A stretch of 44,602 nucleotides of DNA from Rhodobacteraceae bacterium Water-Bin34 (GTDB lineage Bacteria > Pseudomonadota > Alphaproteobacteria > Rhodobacterales > Rhodobacteraceae), in assembly GCA_900197625.1 (NCBI GenBank), contig FZLS01000017.1, positions 1 through 44,602 on the forward strand, in the 5' to 3' direction. Positions 6,735-25,945 of this stretch are shown here, one piece after another. The position numbers and the translations under genes are program-made. Under the pieces are notes generated by a model that saw only the letters and a list, made by a program, of their open reading frames with translations, was not told where the DNA came from and searched no databases. How positions within the stretch are numbered: position 1 is the first letter of the stretch; each line of letters starts with the position of its first letter.

Positions 6735-7592
6735 TCATTTTTTCTTGTAAGACTTTTTGCTGCTTGATTTATCGGCAGTAAGCGATGTACCAAGCTGCCC
6801 CATGTGGCCAAGAGATCCTTTAAAGATATATGTACCAACATGTTGTAATTGCATCCAAGGACACATCCAAACTCTTAGACCAGCTTGTCGTGCTTTCTTA
6901 CAAAAGAAGTAATCTTCTGATAGATAGCGTTTAGTTTCTGGATCAATAATACAATCAAAGAATGCTGTAATCATTCGACTTCCGTCAAAATTATCAGTAC
7001 GAGCATGATCTGGTTTGTATTCAAGTTCTGGATAAGCCTCTGCAAACTTTTCCAGAGTTTCACGTGGAATAAGCATAAAGCCTGTACCACCTTCACCAAT
7101 TTCCATAGGCTCATTCATTTTAAATGAACTTTGCTTAGCAACTGGATTAAAGACATAATCAGCTGAGTAATTTTCTAGCGCAAACGGATTTTCATCTCCA
7201 AGACCTGCTTGTGCTGCCTTAGCAACCTTTTCCCATGCAATTGCTTTCTTAGGATAAGGACCAGTTACAACATTATATTTTTCTGGATCTTTTAAATTGA
7301 CTGCCAATAGGCCTAGTACATCACGCGGTGAGAACGTAATGTCTGCATCAATAAACAATAAATGAGTACAGTCAGATCTTAAGAACTCATCAACAATATA
7401 GTTACGTGCCCTCTGAACTAAGCTCTCATTAAATAGGTAATAGAAATGAATACCAATACCGTTTGTTGCACACATCGTAGCAAGATCTGCCGTTGCTTTA
7501 GTATAGGTACCAGCACATTGAGCGCCATACATAGGTGTACCTATAAAGATTTTTTGTTTTCGTAATTCTTCAATACTTACTTCAATGTTCAT
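6735..7592 (-). CDS. GT-A type glycosyltransferase (family 2-like)
   Basis: The 285-aa protein has a GT-A fold layout: IFIGTPMYGA near the N-terminus, ARNYIVDEFLRSDCTHLLFIDADITF with the metal/nucleotide-binding DAD at residues 82-84, a VVTGPYPKKAI stretch, GTGFMLIPRE, and SEDYFFCKKARQAG. The last resembles the acceptor-site ED motif of family 2 enzymes. It should move a sugar from a nucleotide donor to an unknown acceptor. The C-terminus is a Lys/Ser tail that could touch nucleic acid. The ATG overlaps the dexA stop by 4 nt, and it is the last gene of the modification operon. The acceptor could be hydroxymethylated DNA or a surface glycan; the operon favours the former, but this is inference. 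Confidence 0.88.
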   Translation of the reverse strand: MNIEVSIEELRKQKIFIGTPMYGAQCAGTYTKATADLATMCATNGIGIHFYYLFNESLVQRARNYIVDEFLRSDCTHLLFIDADITFSPRDVLGLLAVNLKDPEKYNVVTGPYPKKAIAWEKVAKAAQAGLGDENPFALENYSADYVFNPVAKQSSFKMNEPMEIGEGGTGFMLIPRETLEKFAEAYPELEYKPDHARTDNFDGSRMITAFFDCIIDPETKRYLSEDYFFCKKARQAGLRVWMCPWMQLQHVGTYIFKGSLGHMGQLGTSLTADKSSSKKSYKKK

Positions 7593-8233
7593 ATTTCAAT
7601 TTGCTCCATGTCTGCCTCAGCTCTAACAATTGTTTGTAATCGGAGTATATCCGCAGCAACATCATGTTTACTATCATGTGCTTTAAAGTTGTATTCCCAT
7701 TTTGCTACATCGGACACGGGAATGAATCCGTTTTTACCGCCTGGCACGTTAAAGTCAAACTTAGCATCAATGAATGTACGAGTATCGCGTACAGCCCAAT
7801 ACTTAAGATACTGACCTAGTAATTCTTGTTTATTAGCATTTTGTGCAATACGATCTAGAATAACTGGATCAAAAGAGTTTGATCTTGACCACCAATAATC
7901 TATTGGCTGTTCACTACGAAGATAATCAATAAGCTTTTCCATAAACTGTACTGCGCTAAGATCTTGCTGTGATGGTTTCATATTTGTACGAAGTTCAGGT
8001 GGCTGATCTAACCACCATTGCAAATCACGTTCATTATATTTGCATCCATGATTTACCATTTGATCTTTAATATCAAACTTAGCTTGTTGCATACCAAGCA
8101 CAAGTTCTTTAAAGGAATAAGGATTATCACTAGTAAACCTTTCCCAATCAAATACGATATAAGAACAATCAATTGCAGGTACTTCCCGCGAGTTTTGACC
8201 TATTGTTTCAAAGTCAATTATAAAATGTCTCAA
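7589..8233 (-). CDS. dexA: DexA-type 3'-5' exonuclease
   Basis: The 214-aa protein is a DEDD-family exonuclease like T4 DexA (227 aa). It has FIIDFET (Asp7, Glu9), FKELVLGMQQAKFDIKDQ, LQWWLDQPPELRTNMKPS, the RSNSFDPVILDRIA region and the last motif HDSKHDVAADIL. It degrades DNA from 3' ends. Both ends overlap neighbours by 4 nt, so it is translationally coupled to the C5 methyltransferase and the GT-A glycosyltransferase. A promoter inside the methyltransferase gene (8287-8315) could transcribe dexA and the glycosyltransferase alone. Confidence 0.92.
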   Translation of the reverse strand: MRHFIIDFETIGQNSREVPAIDCSYIVFDWERFTSDNPYSFKELVLGMQQAKFDIKDQMVNHGCKYNERDLQWWLDQPPELRTNMKPSQQDLSAVQFMEKLIDYLRSEQPIDYWWSRSNSFDPVILDRIAQNANKQELLGQYLKYWAVRDTRTFIDAKFDFNVPGGKNGFIPVSDVAKWEYNFKAHDSKHDVAADILRLQTIVRAEADMEQIEI

Positions 8234-9435
8234 AGAAATGCCTCCAGTGTAGAACCGCGTTCGATATAATCTGCTTTCTGTCTATGATTATACTGCATAA
8301 CGAAGTCTGTGTCAACTGTTACTAGTTCATTATCTAAATATTTTTTAATTTCAGCCGCCATATCAGTCGCTGTTTGTACTGGAACGTTTTGACAAATGTG
8401 ATTAGCATTCTTAGGTGATGCACCAACCAATTCAAAATCTTCAGGTAATCCCATAATAGTCATTGCTTCACGATAGTTAATAAAGCGATCTTCATCAGGG
8501 TGAGCTAGCATTAAAGGATAATGACCAACAAAAGCACCAATACGATCTTTTGGAATTGTTACTCCACGTCGCATAATACTTTTACCTGATTCTAATTTAG
8601 CATGTTTGTATTTGCATTTTTCTACTTCACGTTCATAACCATTCTTTTCCATCCATTCTGCTACTTGCAAATAGTTATAACCTTGTTGTTCAATATAACT
8701 ATAAACACATGCGCCACGAGCTGAAGTTGGCTCAATAGCATTTGCGTGTTCAGCATGAGTACGACCGCCATGAATTTCTTCTAAGATGAATCTGTAATAT
8801 GGATTGTCTGTTGGCTTTTTCTTATGATTGATTACTTCAGTTTGGAAGTTAGACTTAACACCACGGATTACTTCCTCAATAGGAGTATGAGGCTTGTTGT
8901 AATAGCTTAAAAGAGGTGTGGTATTACCTTTCCAGAAGAAATAGAATGACCTCTCGCGTACTTGTGGTGACCCATGCAATAGAGATTTAGTACGATATAC
9001 GGACATTGTATATCCATTTGCTTTGCCAATTTCTTTCATTTGATTACGAATTGTTGCACCAATCTTACCAGCAAATCCAGGAGCATTCTCTCCCCAGAAT
9101 ACTTTTGGCTTATATTCACCTAAGATATAATTAGCTGTTTCGACCAACCATTTGTTATTTGCGTTATCATCTCCATATCCCATCGACATAGTTGATAAAC
9201 CAGCACAAGGACATACCGAGGATACTACATCCGCACGTTCGTTAGTAGGTGGTGATTGGTCCTTATCTAAAACATAATAAGGAATTTCATTATTATAATA
9301 ATTTAAGATGTGACTATCGTTAGCAGCAAAAGCTTCATATGACATAAAGTGCAGTGGTTTAGTACCAAATGCTTTATGTGAACCAATAGTCTCTCCACCA
9401 ATTAAGGGTACGATGGATGCGTGTGTATAACTCAT
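8230..9435 (-). CDS. DNA (cytosine-5) methyltransferase family protein
   Basis: The 401-aa protein has C5-methyltransferase motifs: a degenerate motif I (VPLIGGETIGSHKAFG), motif IV CPCAGLS with catalytic Cys77, motif VI ENAPG (116-120), motif VIII QVRER (158-162), a variable target-recognition region, and motif X NVPVQTATDMAAEI near the C-terminus. It should methylate, or transfer another group to, cytosine C5. With a dCMP hydroxymethylase in the same operon, its substrate may be unusual. The last residues (STLEAFL) nearly match the end of the glycosyltransferase at 10914-12338 and resemble a clamp-binding peptide. 4-nt overlaps join it to both neighbours. Confidence 0.92.
   Translation of the reverse strand: MSYTHASIVPLIGGETIGSHKAFGTKPLHFMSYEAFAANDSHILNYYNNEIPYYVLDKDQSPPTNERADVVSSVCPCAGLSTMSMGYGDDNANNKWLVETANYILGEYKPKVFWGENAPGFAGKIGATIRNQMKEIGKANGYTMSVYRTKSLLHGSPQVRERSFYFFWKGNTTPLLSYYNKPHTPIEEVIRGVKSNFQTEVINHKKKPTDNPYYRFILEEIHGGRTHAEHANAIEPTSARGACVYSYIEQQGYNYLQVAEWMEKNGYEREVEKCKYKHAKLESGKSIMRRGVTIPKDRIGAFVGHYPLMLAHPDEDRFINYREAMTIMGLPEDFELVGASPKNANHICQNVPVQTATDMAAEIKKYLDNELVTVDTDFVMQYNHRQKADYIERGSTLEAFL
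8287..8315 (-). promoter_or_regulatory. Early sigma70-type promoter inside the methyltransferase gene
   Basis: The minus strand has TTGACA (8310-8315), a 17-bp spacer and TATAAT (8287-8292), embedded in the 3' end of the methyltransferase CDS about 55 nt upstream of dexA. Confidence 0.72.
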
Positions 9436-9899
9436 TTATTTTCTCCTGCGCATGCTTCTACTACACGATTCCTTAAATCGGTAGATGAAAACGAGTGCTT
9501 ACGTTTGTTATAGTGAATAGAACATAAGCCAACACCTGTATGATCTGTGCCTTTATATTCCTCGCCAACAATTCTAACGTGTGGCTGAATAGTCAAAATC
9601 ATATCGACGATTTCTTGTTCTGTACTAAATGGAATGACTTCATCAACAAAACGACAACCCGCCAATTGAACATAACGTTCAAACGGAGTTTGGATTGGTT
9701 TATTTTTTGATTCAGGACGGTCAACCGTAGGATCGGTTAATAACCCGCAAATGAGATAATCACAAAGCTCTTTAGCTTCTTGTAGCATTACAATATGACC
9801 AGCATGCAATAAATCAAAAGTAGAACAGGTAAAACCAATTCTTACTTCTTCAACAGGCTTACCAACTTTTCTTGCTATCTCAGCTTTGTTTGTAAACAT
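9432..9899 (-). CDS. Cytidylyltransferase-family nucleotidyltransferase
   Basis: The 155-aa protein carries the nucleotidyltransferase signature FTCSTFDLLHAGHIVMLQEAK (with HxGH) and the C-terminal SSTDLR motif. This matches the glycerol-3-phosphate/ethanolamine-phosphate/heptose cytidylyltransferase-like superfamily. It would join CTP (or another NTP) to a phosphorylated small alcohol or sugar, making an activated donor. The ATG at 9899 has GGAG about 10 nt upstream and lies inside the end of the HAD-kinase gene (20-nt overlap), the likely supplier of its phosphorylated substrate. The glycosyl donor could feed either glycosyltransferase of the operon. The exact substrate cannot be read from the sequence. 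Confidence 0.88.
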   Translation of the reverse strand: MFTNKAEIARKVGKPVEEVRIGFTCSTFDLLHAGHIVMLQEAKELCDYLICGLLTDPTVDRPESKNKPIQTPFERYVQLAGCRFVDEVIPFSTEQEIVDMILTIQPHVRIVGEEYKGTDHTGVGLCSIHYNKRKHSFSSTDLRNRVVEACAGENK

Positions 9900-10914
9900 T
9901 ATCAATACACTCCATAATAAAATCTTTGTTAGGGTGGTACTTATACACCCTAGTCACTTCAGCTGCTACCAATGATATCAGCATATCTCTATTTATATCA
10001 TTTGCCATAGCCAAATAATTTAAAGATCGACCGAATAGTTTCTTTGGGTACTTGTTAATTAATAGGCTTGCACAAAACTTAGCAGCGTCGAGTTCAGTAG
10101 AACCAAACACATCACAAATTGGATCGATCAAATGAGCATCACAGTTATTGAATAAGATGTTTTTAATACCGAAATCACCGTGAGAATATCCACGCTTTAT
10201 TTTATATTTGTTTAAACTCGAAGCAACATCCATTAGTTTTTTCTGGCCTGAGTTTTTAGCGTGTTCTTCAATACGATCAATATAACTACTAAATGTTATA
10301 TAGGATTTATTATTAACAGGCTTTAATGATTTCATTTTATCTAACTGTGTTTGAACTGTAGCTAAAGCCATCCAAAAGTTTTCTTTAAAGAAGTTTTCAT
10401 CGTGATCAATATAATCCATAGTAATTGTTTCACCAACAACACGATGAATAGCCGGTGTTTTAATACCAATCTTTTCAGCTCTTTCAAACCAATCACGTGT
10501 TTGGTGAGCATTATTATCTTGCTTATGTACTACTTTACCATCAGTAAAGATTTCACCACCAGATAATCCACCTTCAAGTTCACGAATATCTACTTCAAGG
10601 AAATCCTCAGGCATAATACCTTTATCATCAATATAGTAAGCTGCTAATGGTTTATCAAATGAGAGCATATTAAACTTTACTTTGTGCTTATTCAACCATT
10701 TGAGCATGCTTTTTTCATACTTATCTCGAGCATCTTCACGAGTTTCACATGATATAGAACCACGTGCCGTAAAGATATCGATTTGCCAACCATCGGCGTG
10801 CAGCTTATTCAACTTCTTAATAAGAGGTTTGTTTGGTAAAGCCTTATCAAACTCGCGGTTTTGATGAAAGGCAAGTGTGTCGTCAAAATCTACTACAATA
10901 CGTTTATGGTACAT
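9880..10914 (-). CDS. HAD phosphatase-like/APH-type kinase fusion protein
   Basis: The 344-aa protein has two domains. Residues 1-110 are HAD-like, with the DFDDTLAF nucleophile motif (Asp9, Asp11), FTARG and SFDKPLAAYYIDDKG; this resembles small phosphatases of capsule or nucleotide-sugar pathways. Residues about 130-344 look like an aminoglycoside/choline-kinase fold: HGDFGIKN (HGD at 245-247) is the catalytic loop and HLIDPICD (Asp264) the metal-binding site. Such a pair could phosphorylate and trim a small polyol, amino-alcohol or sugar for the next gene's nucleotidyltransferase. Its ATG overlaps the upstream stop (TAATG), with GAGGGA as Shine-Dalgarno. Substrate unknown. Confidence 0.85.
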   Translation of the reverse strand: MYHKRIVVDFDDTLAFHQNREFDKALPNKPLIKKLNKLHADGWQIDIFTARGSISCETREDARDKYEKSMLKWLNKHKVKFNMLSFDKPLAAYYIDDKGIMPEDFLEVDIRELEGGLSGGEIFTDGKVVHKQDNNAHQTRDWFERAEKIGIKTPAIHRVVGETITMDYIDHDENFFKENFWMALATVQTQLDKMKSLKPVNNKSYITFSSYIDRIEEHAKNSGQKKLMDVASSLNKYKIKRGYSHGDFGIKNILFNNCDAHLIDPICDVFGSTELDAAKFCASLLINKYPKKLFGRSLNYLAMANDINRDMLISLVAAEVTRVYKYHPNKDFIMECIDNVYKQS

Positions 10915-12338
10915 TAAAAAAATCCCTCAAGTGTTGCACCCGTTTCTTTAGGTTCTTTGATTTCATTTTGTCTGCCATCAACAAGAGTGTATGCTTTTTC
11001 ATTTAATACACTGCCTGGTGTTGATACAATAATCTCACCAGCTTCACGTCGTTGTTTTGCACTTGGAAAATAACTTGAAATCCTATCTATAAAGTTTATA
11101 TTATCACGCCTTTTTCCTTTTGTCAACACAAAATCTAAGAACTTAGGACCAAGCACTTCAATATCATTAAAGTTATAAACTAATTCTTGACAAGCCTTTG
11201 TACGTGCTTCCCACTCTTCTTTGTTATCATAAATTCTATTCAATTCTGCTGCTAACTCTTCTTCACATGTCGCTTCAGATATAAGTGGTCCATAGTATTC
11301 ACCCCACTTTTTACCTTCAGGTGATACTGCGTTTTCAGCAAAGTGTTTACTGATAACAGGAAGAGATAAAAGGAATGATTCAATTACAGTATATTCCATA
11401 CGATGGCCATACTCTTTTGGATCACCTAGACGATATCCACACCATGCTGCTGTAGAACTACCAAGTTGACTCATTCCAAAATCATATTTGTAACTATCAT
11501 ATGCTGTAATAGTTGTACCAGTCTTTTCTTTTTCTTTGGCTGGTTCATAGTGTTCGCCAGCAGAATTTGTACCAACAAATTTAATCTTTGGTTGATATGA
11601 TTTATGGTAAGGTGCTGCATCAGTGGCAAGAGTTTTAGAGTTTGGATCTCCAATAGATGAGATAGAACGTTCACAACCCATCAAAGTTAAATCCCAGTCA
11701 TTCTTTAGATATGGTTCAATACGACAGATCATACCTGGATCTTTAAGTGTTGACATACGACCCATGTACATAAAGTGCTTTTTACGATCTTCAAGGGATG
11801 CGCGATGTTTGTCGTATTCACCAGTACGAACCCATATTGGATTCTCCATTAGTCGACCTTCAAGGCCCGGATCAGTGTGCAGATAACACTCGTTAGAGTA
11901 ACCTTCAAATGATTGTGTAACACCAATGTCTGCTAAAGAAAACAACTCAGCGGCTTGTGTTTGTCTGTTAATAGTGTTCTTTGTAATAGCATGGTCGTGT
12001 ATTACAATGATTGGATCTCCAATGCCTTCGACAAATTCACGGAAACGATCGATGTACTTTCCATTTTTGCGGGTTGGGAATGAGTGTATGATTGCAATGT
12101 CGCAAGTGTTTACTTCATCAAGTACTGGCTGTGCGTCTTCAAGTTCATGATCAGATTCAACGCGGTGAATAGTACTTTTCCATTCAGTATCTTTAGCACG
12201 ACCAAATTTTTGTTTATTATCAAAATCAATTACAATGGTTTCATGTCCTTGTGATACCAACCACGATTCAAATATGTTTGCACCTTTAGTAACGCCGCAT
12301 CCTTCGATGCCCTTTCCAAAGATAAAAGCAACTTTCAT
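10914..12338 (-). CDS. GT-B type glycosyltransferase (family 4-like)
   Basis: The 474-aa protein has a GT-B layout. The N-terminal Rossmann half includes a glycine-rich GKGIEGCGVTKG (about 9-20) and HDHAIT. The linker carries FMYMGRMSTLKDPG (about 189-202), the classic start of the donor-binding half. MEYTVIESFLLSLPVIS supplies the conserved acidic donor-site region. It should transfer a sugar from a nucleotide-sugar. It ends in ATLEGFF, nearly the same tail as the C5 methyltransferase. Upstream is AGGAG. T4's alpha-glucosyltransferase is also GT-B and has been reported to bind gp45, which makes a DNA acceptor plausible; a surface-glycan acceptor is not excluded. Confidence 0.88.
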   Translation of the reverse strand: MKVAFIFGKGIEGCGVTKGANIFESWLVSQGHETIVIDFDNKQKFGRAKDTEWKSTIHRVESDHELEDAQPVLDEVNTCDIAIIHSFPTRKNGKYIDRFREFVEGIGDPIIVIHDHAITKNTINRQTQAAELFSLADIGVTQSFEGYSNECYLHTDPGLEGRLMENPIWVRTGEYDKHRASLEDRKKHFMYMGRMSTLKDPGMICRIEPYLKNDWDLTLMGCERSISSIGDPNSKTLATDAAPYHKSYQPKIKFVGTNSAGEHYEPAKEKEKTGTTITAYDSYKYDFGMSQLGSSTAAWCGYRLGDPKEYGHRMEYTVIESFLLSLPVISKHFAENAVSPEGKKWGEYYGPLISEATCEEELAAELNRIYDNKEEWEARTKACQELVYNFNDIEVLGPKFLDFVLTKGKRRDNINFIDRISSYFPSAKQRREAGEIIVSTPGSVLNEKAYTLVDGRQNEIKEPKETGATLEGFF

Positions 12339-12348
12339 TATATAACTC

Positions 12349-12711
12349 CTATATTAAATATTCTTTGCATTCAGCTAAAATTTGTTTTACAAGCTTCTTG
12401 TCATTCATTTGCCGATTAAGTGGCGATGGATGCGGGAGCCTGAAGTGTGATTTATTTATGACCGATAAACAGTTGCTCGCAAAAACTCCTAAAGCTAAAA
12501 CCTTAGAATGATCTTCAACTAAACCTTTCAGTCTGTCAAAATCAACATCCTTCATTTTAACTTTACCCTTTTGAGTTACTACGTTAGCAAAGCTATAATT
12601 GTTGATACCAAGATCATCACACCACTCGTTAAGGCGAACTATAGTATGACCTTTATACGTAGCAGTCTTTGGATTGTTACCAGGATTTTGACCAATTACT
12701 AATACACTCAT
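12349..12711 (-). CDS. Uracil-DNA glycosylase superfamily-like protein
   Basis: The 120-aa protein opens with [11 protein letters not shown], like the first catalytic motif of UDG families (GxxPG). It has [16 protein letters not shown] in the middle and the C-terminal [10 protein letters not shown], the HPSP loop that inserts into DNA. It is about half the size of usual UDGs, as in small phage members. It may excise or recognise a modified base, or act as an inactive reader. Position next to ferredoxin and the glycosyltransferase puts it in the base-modification operon. Its ATG overlaps the ferredoxin stop (4 nt). Superfamily call fairly secure; activity is not. Confidence 0.78.
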
Positions 12712-13034
12712 TCTACAAACTTCTCAAATTTATGTGGTATGTTTTCCCATTCATAAGCATCCTCTAACGGAGCTTTTTCTTCATCGATGTTTGGCCATAT
12801 CTGACTATATTTAGCATTTCTTTCCATCCAAATAATTTTATCTGGTTCAGGTAAATCTACATCAGATACAATCGCATCAACTGGACATTCCGGTACACAT
12901 ATTCCACAGTCAATACATTCATCAGGATTAATAACCAACATATCAGGTCCTTCATAGAAACAATCTACAGGACAAACTGATACGCACGTGGTGTGCTTAC
13001 ATTTTACACAATTGTCGGTAACTAAATAAGTCAT
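12708..13034 (-). CDS. fdxA: Seven-iron ferredoxin (FdxA type)
   Basis: The 108-aa protein matches bacterial Fdx[18 protein letters not shown] and [10 protein letters not shown], then [20 protein letters not shown]. Cysteines at 9, 12, 17, 21, 25, 40, 43, 46 and 50 fit a 3Fe-4S plus 4Fe-4S arrangement. The C-terminal part ([20 protein letters not shown]) is also typical of the family. It carries single electrons at low potential in the cytoplasm. The frame is open further upstream, but the family's N-terminus begins exactly at the ATG at 13034. It sits in an early operon of nucleotide and base-modifying enzymes; no obvious electron acceptor is encoded beside it. Confidence 0.92.
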
Positions 13035-13042
13035 AATACTTA

Positions 13043-13519
13043 TTATACACCAAGAATTGTAACTTGTACACCGCTTTCTGAAAACATTGGCAAAGAATGT
13101 TCTTCCCAAACTTTTTGCCATTCGGCTCGGTCAGTTTTATCAGTTGGAATTACTATTTCTTTAATGCCGGCTTGTATAACACACTTAGCACAATCAGGAC
13201 AAATAGGCAATCCATGTACATACATCGTTGAACCTTTAAGGCTTACACCTGAATATAAAGCATTCATAAGAGCGTTCATTTCAGCATGAACTACAAGCTT
13301 ATGTTTTAATTCACGAGTGTTGAGCCTTACTTCGGTATCATCAATACCCTTTGGAAATCCATTATAGCCTGTTGCTAGGATTCTTCGCTCATCATTAACG
13401 ACTACACAACCAATCTTACTTGATGGATCTTTACTCCATGTTGCGATCATCTCAGCCATAGCCATAAATCGCATATGCCATTTGTCGTTATTCTTTAAAA
13501 AGATTACGTTATCGTTCAA
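13043..13519 (-). CDS. cd: dCMP deaminase
   Basis: The 158-aa protein has the zinc deaminase motifs HAEMNAL (His78, Glu80) and PICPDCAKC (Cys107, Cys110), and the [10 protein letters not shown] stretch seen in dCMP deaminases such as T4 Cd and ComEB. It converts dCMP to dUMP for thymidylate synthesis. With dCMP hydroxymethylase next door it competes for the same pool, as in T4. It overlaps the MazG-like gene by 11 nt. Confidence 0.95.
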
Positions 13520-13859
13520 AGAGAGTACTCCATTGTTCTAGTTTCTTTTTCTTAACAGCAATTCTTTGATCTATTTCTGCTTGAGAAACGAGATTAAATT
13601 CTTTGAGTAATTCAATCATTGCTGCCACGTCACCAATTTCATCTTTTAAGTTATTGGTAAACTTTTCTTGCAGGGCTTTAGTTCTTATTACTTTACTACA
13701 AGCTTGTGTTAACTCACCGCATTCTTCCATAGTAATAACTAACAGCTCATCAATCTTATTTGATTTTATAAGCTGATTAGCACGTCGGTCTGACTCGCGG
13801 AAATAAGAATCATACTCTTTTTCTTGTTGCTCAAGAACGTAAGCGCCCATTTTACTCAT
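13509..13859 (-). CDS. MazG-like nucleotide pyrophosphohydrolase
   Basis: The 116-aa all-alpha protein carries the MazG/all-alpha NTP-PPase metal-site motifs EECGELTQACS (ExxE) and DEIGDVAAMIELL (ExxD). These enzymes cleave NTPs or dNTPs to monophosphates. A phage that builds hydroxymethylcytosine DNA needs a dCTP-removing activity; T4 uses gp56 of a related fold. This gene, between hydroxymethylase and deaminase, is the natural candidate, which is an inference. MazG proteins of marine phages have also been linked to general nucleotide turnover. It starts 1 nt after the hydroxymethylase stop. Confidence 0.85.
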   Translation of the reverse strand: MSKMGAYVLEQQEKEYDSYFRESDRRANQLIKSNKIDELLVITMEECGELTQACSKVIRTKALQEKFTNNLKDEIGDVAAMIELLKEFNLVSQAEIDQRIAVKKKKLEQWSTLFER

Positions 13860-13860
13860 G

Positions 13861-14577
13861 TTATTCTACCAAGTTGAAGTGTCGGTCATACACGTGTAAG
13901 TTCATTACTTGCCAGATAAGATCACCTTTAGTAATGCTGTTGATTGCAGGTGTACCGAATGTATTCATGTTATTATCAGCAGCTTCAACGTTATATTCTT
14001 TAACGAACTTATCCATTAGATACTGAGCCCATGCGTAATCATTTTTATAGCCAAAGACTACGTCATTAGAGCGCATTTGAGATACCATATGTAGTTTACC
14101 ATCACGAATATAAAAGGTCTGAGCGTTAGTACAGATGAAATCAGACTTACCGTTTTCATTGTATTCGGCCCAGATAGATGGACGATTATAGACCATTTGA
14201 GCACGACGTGAATCAGGATTTTGAAGCAATTCATTCATAGCATTTCGGTATTGATTGAAGTACTTATCAGAATAAACAATATGGCCATAGTTTGAATTGA
14301 TTTCACCAACGTCATTAGCTGAATATTGCCAAGCCATTGGTGGTTCTTTTTCATCACCATGAATATCATTAATGTTCGTTGATTGGCTTTCATACCAGTC
14401 GAGTTCAGCTTGGATATACTTAGGAGCTGGTTTACCAAAGATTGCTTCTTCATCAGCAACAAAAGATGCGCCGAGCATCTCAATAGTTTTAGCACCTGTT
14501 TTATCAGTAGTAAATCTTTCAGCAGCTAATTCGCTTTTGAAATATTCACGTACGTCACTTACTTTCATCATCGCCAT
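13861..14577 (-). CDS. 42: dCMP hydroxymethylase (gp42-like)
   Basis: The 238-aa protein is close to T4 gp42 throughout: DKTGAKTIEMLGASFVADE, YIQAELDWYESQS, GEINSNYG, LLQNPDSRRAQMVYNRPS, DFICTN, MRSNDVVFGYKNDYAWAQYL and LHVYDRHF. The catalytic Cys is 149. Asp180 takes the place of the thymidylate-synthase Asn, equivalent to T4 Asp179, which selects dCMP and hydroxymethylation. It makes 5-hydroxymethyl-dCMP from dCMP with methylene-tetrahydrofolate. I chose the ATG at 14577 because AAGGA lies 7 nt upstream; an ATG at 14592 lacks a site. This implies the phage DNA may contain hydroxymethylcytosine. Confidence 0.94.
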   Translation of the reverse strand: MAMMKVSDVREYFKSELAAERFTTDKTGAKTIEMLGASFVADEEAIFGKPAPKYIQAELDWYESQSTNINDIHGDEKEPPMAWQYSANDVGEINSNYGHIVYSDKYFNQYRNAMNELLQNPDSRRAQMVYNRPSIWAEYNENGKSDFICTNAQTFYIRDGKLHMVSQMRSNDVVFGYKNDYAWAQYLMDKFVKEYNVEAADNNMNTFGTPAINSITKGDLIWQVMNLHVYDRHFNLVE

Positions 14578-14695
14578 AATAATATCCTTCATTCGAGTTT
14601 GATTCTAGGTCTTCTACAATTCTATAAAGATCTTGTAGCTTTTCGATATCATTTTTATTTTCAGTATCGATCTGAATTTCTATTTTTATAATCAT
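14555..14695 (-). CDS. Small acidic protein, 46 aa
   Basis: The frame starts 2 nt after the upstream stop and overlaps the hydroxymethylase start by 23 nt. The protein is a predicted amphipathic strand-helix (IIKIEIQIDT, then NDIEKLQDLYRIVEDLES) with an acidic, Tyr-rich tail. The Shine-Dalgarno is weak, so translation probably depends on coupling. Function unknown. Confidence 0.55.
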   Translation of the reverse strand: MIIKIEIQIDTENKNDIEKLQDLYRIVEDLESNSNEGYYYGDDESK

Positions 14696-14697
14696 AA

Positions 14698-15027
14698 TTA
14701 TTCATTGTAATCAGTTTCTTTGTTAAATCTATCATCAAAATCTTCAGCAGTAGCTTCGGCTTGACACATGATAAGTATCATCATTTGTGTAAGAGCGTGA
14801 TGAGTGTGTGGTAATCCACTTTCAGGATCAATATCTTCGCCTGAGTTCCAAGCTAAGAGATGTCGCATGATTGATCCATAATGACGTGTTGATGGAAACT
14901 TATTAACATCTTTACGCCAATTATTTTTGCCATACTTTTGAGCACCAAAAGCAAACACTTCAGCCGCAGCAATAATAGCTTCAGATGGAACGAGATCAAT
15001 TGGTGGTTTGTCGTTATCAAACTTCAT
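14698..15027 (-). CDS. DUF5664-type (dATP/dGTP diphosphohydrolase N-terminal-like) protein
   Basis: The 109-aa protein has the family pattern KFDNDKPPIDLVPSEAI, FGAQKYGKNNW, RHLLAWNSGEDIDPESGLPHTHHALTQM. Proteins with this domain are annotated as dATP/dGTP diphosphohydrolase N-terminal domain and are common in phages. The His/Asp/Glu-rich end of the motif could bind metal. It fits the nucleotide-pool theme of its operon (hydroxymethylase, MazG-like protein, deaminase). Activity is not proven from sequence. Confidence 0.8.
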   Translation of the reverse strand: MKFDNDKPPIDLVPSEAIIAAAEVFAFGAQKYGKNNWRKDVNKFPSTRHYGSIMRHLLAWNSGEDIDPESGLPHTHHALTQMMILIMCQAEATAEDFDDRFNKETDYNE

Positions 15028-25429: not shown

Positions 25430-25945
25430 TTACTTTTTAGCTGCTTTTTTGGCCGCTTTAGCCGCTTTCTTTTCCATCTGAATGACTGCTTTATCGTATT
25501 TTGCTTGAGAAATTAGGCCTTCTTTAAGCAATCTCGTACGGTTTACCATATGAGCAGCTTGAGTTTCTTCCTTAGATCCACCAAAATATGGTACACAATG
25601 ACCTTCTTCAGCCATTATTTCGGTGACTTTTTTCATTTCTCCGTTGTATTCTACTTTAAAATCTCCAAGGATACGACCGAATTTGCCCTTCATGTCTTCG
25701 CCTTTTCTGTCTTCGGTTGTAATCAACTTACCACCTTTTTTCATCAGCTGCTTTAATCTCAGCTTAGCCGCTTCTCCAAATAGATCTTCTACTCTATCTG
25801 ATGTGCGTGATTCGGGAGTATCAATTCCCATAATTCGTACTCGTTCATCTGTTAGTGTAATACCGAAGCCAAGATCAATGTCTACATCTACAGTATCACC
25901 GTCAACTACTTTAAGTACTTTGACGTCATATTCGTTCGTGTTCAT
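25430..25945 (-). CDS. Thermonuclease (staphylococcal nuclease-like)
   Basis: The 171-aa protein has the SNase core: VLKVVDGDTVDVDIDLGFG, VRIMGIDTPESR (Arg37, Asp42, Glu45) and GKFGRILGDF (Arg91), which together form the calcium-dependent catalytic site. The C-terminus is an Ala/Lys repeat (KKAAKAAKKAAKK) that can bind nucleic acid. No signal peptide, so it likely acts in the cytoplasm on DNA or RNA. Divergent from the exported-protein operon. A GATAAATA late-like box on the minus strand lies at 26012-26019. Confidence 0.92.
   Translation of the reverse strand: MNTNEYDVKVLKVVDGDTVDVDIDLGFGITLTDERVRIMGIDTPESRTSDRVEDLFGEAAKLRLKQLMKKGGKLITTEDRKGEDMKGKFGRILGDFKVEYNGEMKKVTEIMAEEGHCVPYFGGSKEETQAAHMVNRTRLLKEGLISQAKYDKAVIQMEKKAAKAAKKAAKK

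Follow-up and report, generated by a model that had tools for sequence, protein, structure and literature searches.

Which group, if any, would be placed on the cytosines of a phage that carries a dCMP hydroxymethylase, a DNA-glucosyltransferase-like protein and its own sugar-activation genes in one operon? This question is raised by positions 6,735 to 14,592, minus strand, of contig FZLS01000017.1 (C76), the complete 44,602 bases of which form the window analyzed herein. Judged from sequence, these genes very probably form a T4-like phage operon for cytosine hypermodification, in which 5-hydroxymethylcytosine (hmC) would be made, a sugar nucleotide would be made, and the sugar would be placed on hmC by an enzyme resembling the T4 DNA alpha-glucosyltransferase AGT. 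The window comes from a 3.6-Mb bin of 274 contigs. The T4 major capsid family was matched nine times in the bin, each time on a different contig, which indicates that the bin is mixed and contains several T4-like phages. The window itself is a T4-like phage contig, on which clamp, clamp loader, topoisomerase and tail genes of the T4-like kind were found.

The eleven genes named in a first-pass annotation of this DNA were found where it had placed them, all on the minus strand, in one run with coupled ends (overlaps of 1-26 bases or gaps of 1-10 bases). The hydroxymethylase reading frame reaches out to 14,592; the earlier value of 14,577 is an inner ATG in the same frame. The names were mostly confirmed by family searches, those of the MazG, UDG and GT-A proteins and of the kinase half of the HAD-kinase being weaker. 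The same core gene order was found in many other viral contigs, which makes the operon more than a chance arrangement.

In the proposed pathway, a hydroxymethylase of the T4 gp42 type would make 5-hydroxymethyl-dCMP, and hmC would enter the DNA during replication. The MazG-like enzyme, presumably by removing dCTP, and the dCMP deaminase would adjust the nucleotide pools. The sugar phosphate used next would most likely be a pentose 5-phosphate, for example D-arabinose 5-phosphate; the fused kinase would phosphorylate it at C1, and the HAD half would strip the other phosphate to give a sugar-1-phosphate. The TagD/HldE-like nucleotidyltransferase would combine this with CTP or ATP to give an NDP-sugar, from which the AGT-family GT-B enzyme would transfer the sugar to hmC in DNA. 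The pathway is read from gene families, conserved motifs, linkage and the exchange of activation enzymes between phages, all seen at the sequence level. We infer from these the reactions, the sugar, the nucleotide and the linkage, and the benefit would be protection from host nucleases.

The type of the hydroxymethylase (HMase; 13,861-14,592; Pfam Thymidylat_synt 1e-14) mattered because RB69-type enzymes of the thymidylate synthase (TS) family are reported, in a passage of PMC13390438, to make 5-hydroxy-dCMP, now given as their product instead of 5-hydroxymethyl-dCMP. By alignment, the window enzyme has 51% identity to T4 gp42, and gp42 has 24% to RB69 ORF048 in the same alignment. By tblastn on the window, gp42 matched at 48% (E 9e-69) and RB69 ORF048 at 23% (E 2e-11). 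The earlier dCMP hydroxymethylase call is upheld by both comparisons, and the enzyme is assigned by sequence to the gp42 type, being closer to gp42 than to the RB69 type. Cys148 and Asp179 (T4 numbering), which are named as catalytic in T4 dCMP hydroxymethylase in the title of Graves 1992 (cited in PMC8670742), are invariant across 11 aligned sequences. The RB69 enzyme is among these, and since RB69-type enzymes have both residues, the two alone do not separate the types. Among the relative loci, numbered with L herein, the enzyme at L047:3838-4500 is annotated as deoxyuridylate hydroxymethyltransferase; it has Asp at the Asp179 site and so may act on dCMP. The S-TIM5 'thymidylate synthase' (L144:5775-6611), with GVPLD, reads by eye as the Asp type, and a C5-cytosine-methyltransferase-family (C5MT) gene lies near by.

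The GT-B glycosyltransferase (10,914-12,338) passes the Pfam AGT cut-off (27.8 bits against 25; E 1.8e-6) and matches phrog_2888 at 2.3e-31. A profile from 13 GT-B relatives matched no PDB entries but those of T4 AGT (three distinct sequences), at 3e-16 over residues 1-152. T4 AGT residues R204, K209, E306, Y307, T308 and E311, which we take to be donor-binding, are invariant in a six-sequence alignment. These shared residues fall in the C-terminal half of T4 AGT. The protein thus reads as an AGT homologue and is predicted to be an hmC glycosyltransferase acting in DNA, and this homology supports its earlier reading as a DNA glycosyltransferase.

The sugar to be transferred is suggested by the 344-residue protein at 9,880-10,914, a HAD phosphatase fused to an APH-family kinase (HADkin). 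The HAD half matches PDB 1xpj (1e-13) and 9iqw (HMMER 6e-11, Foldseek and alignment), and tblastn of RB69 ORF051 matched it at 8e-9. Entry 9iqw is titled 'phage HY126 encoded D-arabinose 1,5-diphosphate phosphatase AfhF', and along the aligned stretch its letters are, by eye, identical to those of RB69 ORF051. By sequence, the HAD half is placed in the AfhF family, that of the RB69-type arabinose-activation phosphatase. A pentose is favored because the HAD relative of named substrate is titled a D-arabinose 1,5-diphosphate phosphatase; other sugar phosphates would also fit. The kinase half of the window protein gave no Pfam kinase match. In fold it resembles APH, MTR and choline kinases and LicA. 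Compared with RB69-type kinases it scored 95.7% in hhalign (E 1e-8) and only 0.021 in plain BLASTP, and the RB69 kinase had no tblastn match on the window at 1e-3. HAD residues D9, D11, T13, K88, D96 and D97 and kinase residues H245, G246, D247, N252 and D264 do not vary among seven sequences, the most distant at 27% identity; the kinase alignment excludes L027, which has a stop in its reading frame.

The TagD/HldE-like nucleotidyltransferase (CTPt; 9,432-9,905; Pfam CTP_transf_like 5e-13) is predicted from sequence to activate a sugar-1-phosphate with CTP or ATP. Its profile matched PDB 3elb (7e-26), TagD 1coz (1.5e-18) and 5x9q (8e-12). It passed neither family cut-off, with 77.5 bits for HldE/RfaE domain II (TIGR02199, cut-off 181.5) and 53.8 bits for TagD (TIGR01518, cut-off 165.4). 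The first-pass annotation had proposed that a small molecule is phosphorylated and activated with CTP. The phage-made activation genes are in line with the first part, whereas CTP in particular is not favored by these scores.

Relatives were searched for linkage, with neighbor genes called by tblastn (E up to 1e-4) using the query families in hand and with near-identical contigs kept in the counts. Each scan took at most the best 80 loci, which favors close relatives, and in the picks made by CTPt and by C5MT the 80 are the best of at least that many. L001 is the window itself, and L002/L016, L005/L018, L006/L019, L007/L020, L010/L017 and L014/L026 are same-contig pairs. In IMG/VR, the HAD-kinase was found at 14 loci and AGT at 33. 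The HAD-kinase was seen in 28 of the 33 AGT loci, and the other five contigs stop within AGT or at most 55 bases past it. The core order HMase ... AGT-HADkin-CTPt-C5MT was found wherever the stretch was long enough, except in L013. Extra stretches lie between HADkin and CTPt in L025, L028, L034, L038 and L043 (a 305-residue gene in L025), and a second CTPt lies upstream in L021-L023. A scan of genome contigs gave a single locus, L052, with the same operon. At L031:6913-7713, a 266-residue gene, class I aldolase-like by eye, lies between HMase and AGT.

Two phage groups were compared with the window. AGT (93-96%), HADkin (84-90%) and CTPt (94-97%) are highly identical, whereas HMase (60-62%) and C5MT (48-49%) are diverged where whole. 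The incomplete genes gave 40% for a short HMase piece (L006/L019) and 58% for cut C5MT ends (L005, L009, L018). By blastn, one block of about 3.46 kb matched at 89% (L010) and 83% (L022), and the aligning flanks matched at 67-73%. The identity of the block against the diverged HMase, C5MT and flanks indicates that AGT, HADkin and CTPt travel together.

The best 80 CTPt loci were divided into the nearer 35 (L053-L087, 65.3-96.8% identity; L053-L055 lie on contigs already met in the HADkin scan) and the other 45 (L088-L132, 53.6-65.1%). The boundary was set after the table was seen, between L084 (65.3%, with HADkin) and L089 (65.1%, without). HADkin was present in 27/27 nearer loci with at least 1.1 kb upstream and in 0/41 of the rest. 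The corresponding counts were 14/15 and 0/32 for HMase, 22/23 and 0/34 for C5MT, and 13/14 and 0/30 for glycosyltransferases of known families. L066 is the sole miss for the last three in the nearer group. As the main exception to the linkage, its HAD-kinase and CTPt (L066:4124-6462) adjoin a gene that resembles GT-A by eye.

The best 80 loci were likewise picked with GT1, an associated glycosyltransferase family (GT2 being another); L176 and L177, already met in another scan, are counted. HADkin alone was found in 34 loci and the RB69-type NTP_transferase-kinase (NTkin) alone in 39, with both in one (L303), HAD only in one and none in five. No GT1-picked locus bearing NTkin has CTPt. In the 29 GT1 loci with full flanks, HMase was found in 28, C5MT in 27 and an activation enzyme in 28. 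Since HADkin and NTkin are nearly exclusive across the 80 loci, the GT1 family appears to draw on either one activation set or the other. The gp42-type HMase, the AGT homologue and the linkage support, at the level of sequence, the earlier claim that the hypermodification is built on hmC.

C5MT (8,230-9,435; Pfam DNA_methylase 9e-21) closes the core of the operon. C5-methyltransferases have a catalytic Cys, the Glu of ENx, the Arg residues of QxRxR and an FxGxGG motif I. Cys77, Glu116-Asn117, Arg160 and Arg162 are invariant in 10 sequences. Motif I is unusual, being PL[IV]GG in 9 of the 10 and FIFGG in phage G; FxGxGG does not occur in them, and the profile alignment to M.HaeIII starts only at GG. 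A search of the phage collection at E 1e-5 gave eight records with C5MT, of which five belong to S-TIM5-like cyanophages (S-TIM5 itself counting twice), two to phage G and one to XG4. Of the 44 C5MT-picked loci with 4.5 kb or more of upstream sequence, 43 have an HMase there, and the two genes are frequent partners. In a genome filled with hmC, a normal C5 methyltransferase would find little substrate. A sigma-70-like promoter match (12/12 bases) was noted at 8,287-8,315 on the minus strand, within the C5MT gene and upstream of the DexA gene.

The C5MT pick yielded 77 new loci (L158-L234), with L003, L043 and L044 outside these. HMase and C5MT are both in view within 7 kb in 59 loci, and the slot between them was tallied manually; in the other 18 of the 77, the covered stretch showed no called HMase in the 7 kb preceding C5MT. 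The slot holds AGT-HADkin-CTPt in 5/59 loci, NTkin-HAD-GT1 in 2/59 and AGT with an epimerase in 1/59. A gene family termed U0 is found with a UDP-galactopyranose mutase in 15/59 loci (six with a weakly GalE-like epimerase) and alone in 11/59. The weakly GT4-like gene U3 occupies 6/59, an epimerase with TAGT and a UDP-sugar dehydrogenase 2/59 (L187, L198), and the four genes U8-U11 2/59. One representative of each new slot family was scanned against Pfam. The cut-off was passed by GLF (1.2e-52), TAGT (1.2e-16) and UDPG_MGDP_dh (9e-16), U3 scored below it, and U0, U8, U9, U10 and U11 had no match. The mutase has matches among solved UDP-galactopyranose mutases as well.

The loci with mutase and U0 are L163, L167-L172, L181, L199, L211, L213, L214, L216, L226 and L228. 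From its position, U0 may be a glycosyltransferase, and the pair suggests galactofuranosyl-hydroxymethylcytosine. U8-U11 lie at L227:3915-7998 and L232:5063-6971, between UDG-like and C5MT genes, and are a candidate cytosine-hypermodification pathway. A broader reading, put forward tentatively and with somewhat less than even confidence, is that in T4-like phages of this lineage the site between HMase or deaminase and C5MT is a dedicated plug-in site. Interchangeable modules there would give hmC differing sugars: a pentose through HADkin and CTPt in the window phage, galactofuranose with the mutase, and a UDP-glucuronate-derived sugar with TAGT. The C5MT-family protein would then act on hmC DNA and not on plain cytosine.

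In 15 of the 59 slots, an AGT-like gene is the sole glycosyltransferase and no activation gene is recognized, which makes a host donor probable for some AGT homologues. This count is also the ground for the strongest rival account, in which the window AGT homologue glucosylates hmC from host UDP-glucose as in T4, and the product of HADkin and CTPt is a further group, attached to the glucose as a decoration or transferred by some other enzyme. The 305-residue gene of the L025 type, which has no informative Pfam match, could be such a second transferase. Such an account is unlikely, though it deserves to be kept in mind. AGT, HADkin and CTPt moved as one block, and HADkin-CTPt persists where a GT1-family enzyme replaces AGT. 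Both results fit better with a sugar made by HADkin and CTPt and transferred by the AGT homologue itself.

The activated group could instead be a polyol or amino-alcohol, as the first-pass annotation had allowed, with HADkin and CTPt giving CDP-glycerol, CDP-ethanolamine or a similar compound, which GT-B would transfer with phosphate onto hmC. The CTPt profile matches ethanolamine-phosphate and glycerol-3-phosphate cytidylyltransferases in the PDB, and the kinase half resembles choline kinase and LicA in fold. A sugar nucleotide is the more probable product, because the HAD falls in one family with a pentose bisphosphate phosphatase, because the AGT homologue keeps residues from the C-terminal half of T4 AGT, and because GalE-like epimerases (scoring below the GalE cut-off) lie between CTPt and a glycosyltransferase in L013, L065 and L236. 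The AGT type of the GT-B and the exchange with the NTP_transferase-kinase fusion also stand against the polyol, which was not supported and stands as an improbable, minor rival.

The three activities proposed here are those of the ADP-heptose pathway. In that pathway, the kinase of HldE (kinase/adenylyltransferase) forms a bisphosphate, the HAD enzyme GmhB removes one phosphate, and the nucleotidyltransferase makes the sugar nucleotide. The window has a kinase, a HAD and a TagD/HldE-like nucleotidyltransferase as well, but its kinase is of the APH fold and fused to the HAD, and a DNA-glycosyltransferase homologue lies in the operon. With T4 hmC glucosylation (gp42, alpha-gt, beta-gt), the window shares a gp42-type hydroxymethylase and an AGT-family GT-B in a T4-like phage. 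Unlike T4, the operon has no called beta-gt and carries phage-made sugar-activation genes and a C5MT partner, and the C-terminal half of its AGT is diverged.

In RB69, genes for a SIS isomerase, an NTP_transferase, an APH-like kinase, a HAD and a TS-family enzyme lie together. The arabinosyl-cytosine module of RB69 and Mosigvirus, as outlined in passages of PMC6024577, PMC13390438 and PMC8056088, resembles the window in its AfhF-family HAD, APH-family kinase, nucleotidyltransferase and TS-family enzyme. It differs in having a SIS isomerase, a separate kinase, an NTP_transferase-fold nucleotidyltransferase and a 5-hydroxy-dCMP synthase, whereas the window has a HAD-kinase fusion, a TagD/HldE-like nucleotidyltransferase, a gp42-type HMase, an AGT homologue and no isomerase. 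RB69 ORF053, the NTP_transferase-fold enzyme, had no match in the window, where the enzyme is CTP_transf_like. A passage of PMC13390438 described the RB69-type arabinose pathway in 2026 as incompletely characterized.

Bacillus phage G is similar over gp301-gp319, with two AGT homologues, a HAD (gp310), an NTP_transferase (gp309), a C5MT homologue (gp301), a TS enzyme (gp319), a weakly APH-like gp311 and gp315, in which a thymidylate-kinase-like domain is joined to a UDG domain. It differs in its NTP_transferase-fold nucleotidyltransferase, in a HAD of the general PF00702 type and in the scattering of the genes across about 15 kb on both strands. Agathobaculum phage AB434P2 has a dUTPase_2/MazG-like gene, a thymidylate-kinase-like gene, a HAD-kinase, CTPt, two glycosyltransferase-like genes and an enzyme of the TS family whose residue at the Asp179 site is Asp. 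The AB434P2-like gut clone MT837767 (marked UNVERIFIED, its glycosyltransferase split over two frames) has a HAD-kinase, CTPt, a glycosyltransferase and an Asp-type TS enzyme. Pseudoalteromonas phage XG4 (marked UNVERIFIED_ORG) has HMase (36% to the window, E 7e-51), a HAD, an NTP_transferase-kinase fusion, GT1, GT2 and C5MT. In Enterococcus phage Planchet, a HAD (30% to that of the window, E 2e-12) and an NTP_transferase-kinase fusion adjoin GT1 and an enzyme of the TS family. Such combined sets in other phages speak for the proposed pathway. Among the open-licence PMC papers searched, none was found that names AfhF or HY126 or that describes this operon.

Several points weigh against a sugar made by the phage and placed on hmC. 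The RB69 precedent concerns 5-hydroxycytosine and not hmC, according to a passage of PMC13390438. RB69 ORF055, the SIS arabinose-5-phosphate isomerase, had no tblastn match in the 44.6-kb window at 1e-3, and among 312 loci this isomerase was found only in RB69 itself and a Morganella phage. A T4 gp1-type hmdCMP kinase (PF21448) was found in none of the five records searched. The nucleotide may be CTP or ATP, with the adenylyltransferase family HldE/RfaE scoring above TagD and both below cut-off. Beyond its N-terminal third, GT-B is diverged from T4 AGT, and a T4 AGT sequence search matched this third only. The GT-B fold model is poor (pLDDT 54) and adds little beyond the sequence, although its best eight Foldseek matches are T4 AGT. 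L013, a 26 kb fragment, has HADkin-CTPt-epimerase-GT2-GT1 without AGT, HMase, any TS-family match or C5MT, and L066, a 145 kb contig, has HADkin and CTPt with no TS family, C5MT or known-family glycosyltransferase. These two loci suggest that the HADkin-CTPt pair may serve another glycan elsewhere.

The alternative named in the first-pass annotation, that the cassette modifies phage or host surface glycans, could draw on L013 and L066, on the long, by eye tail-fibre-like genes near the pair in L013, on the best NCBIfam match of the HAD ('capsule biosynthesis phosphatase', below cut-off) and on pelagimyophage glycosyltransferases, read as surface-glycan enzymes in a passage of PMC7029224, but it is highly improbable and was rejected as the leading explanation: the slot is shared by AGT and TAGT, each a family of DNA glycosyltransferases, and HMase accompanies nearly all full-flank GT1 loci.

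Among the remaining genes of the operon, the candidate dCTPase is a MazG-like NTP pyrophosphohydrolase (13,509-13,859; phrog_4856 8e-17; Pfam MazG 0.003, below cut-off), followed by the dCMP deaminase (13,043-13,519; PF00383 8e-22). The FdxA-type ferredoxin (12,708-13,037; NCBIfam FdxA 149.7 bits, cut-off 135) is present in only 3/77 loci of the set L158-L234, over which the counts below were also made. It is probably a passenger and was rejected as part of the modification chemistry; the first-pass annotation had listed it in the operon. The small UDG-superfamily protein (12,349-12,711; Pfam UDG 8.6e-5, just under cut-off) has relatives in 18/77 loci. The DexA-like exonuclease (7,589-8,233; phrog_255 7e-26; Pfam Rv2179c-like 3.6e-13) is followed by the GT-A-like protein (6,735-7,592; Pfam matches below cut-off), which adjoins DexA and the clamp gene. 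GT-A matches phrog_1574 (function unknown) at 2.5e-60, a family in 66 phage records, including Synechococcus, Sinorhizobium, Caulobacter and Pelagibacter phages. As a second DNA glycosyltransferase it was set aside, since no specific link to the module was found, though it is present in 66/77 loci and so may have such a role. The earlier proposal of transfer by one or both glycosyltransferases is therefore retained for GT-B and not for the widespread GT-A.

Signal scans gave 38 promoter-like sites against 35.8 expected, which is chance level. Terminator-like sites (7 against 3.9 expected) and a strict ribosome-site pattern (0 matches) were uninformative. Elsewhere on the window, a dATP/dGTP diphosphohydrolase N-terminal-like protein (14,698-15,027; PF18909 2e-28) lies directly upstream of the operon, a phage gene with a cytochrome c domain lies at 2,052-2,504 (Pfam 1.5e-8), and a Staphylococcal-nuclease-like protein lies at 25,430-25,945 (PF00565 5e-10).

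The operon offers a parallel for comparison with the RB69-type arabinose pathway, and it raises the question of why a C5-methyltransferase homologue so regularly accompanies the hydroxymethylase. It also provides enzyme sets that can be tested for the making of new DNA bases; these could yield DNA-labelling tools and explain escape from restriction and CRISPR. Should the plug-in site hold, the resulting bases would be ones unreported in the open-licence literature searched. If the proposed pathway is true, cytosine glycosylation in these T4-like phages would be modular, with cassettes for sugar synthesis that can be exchanged, and the host-derived glucose of T4 would be one case among many.

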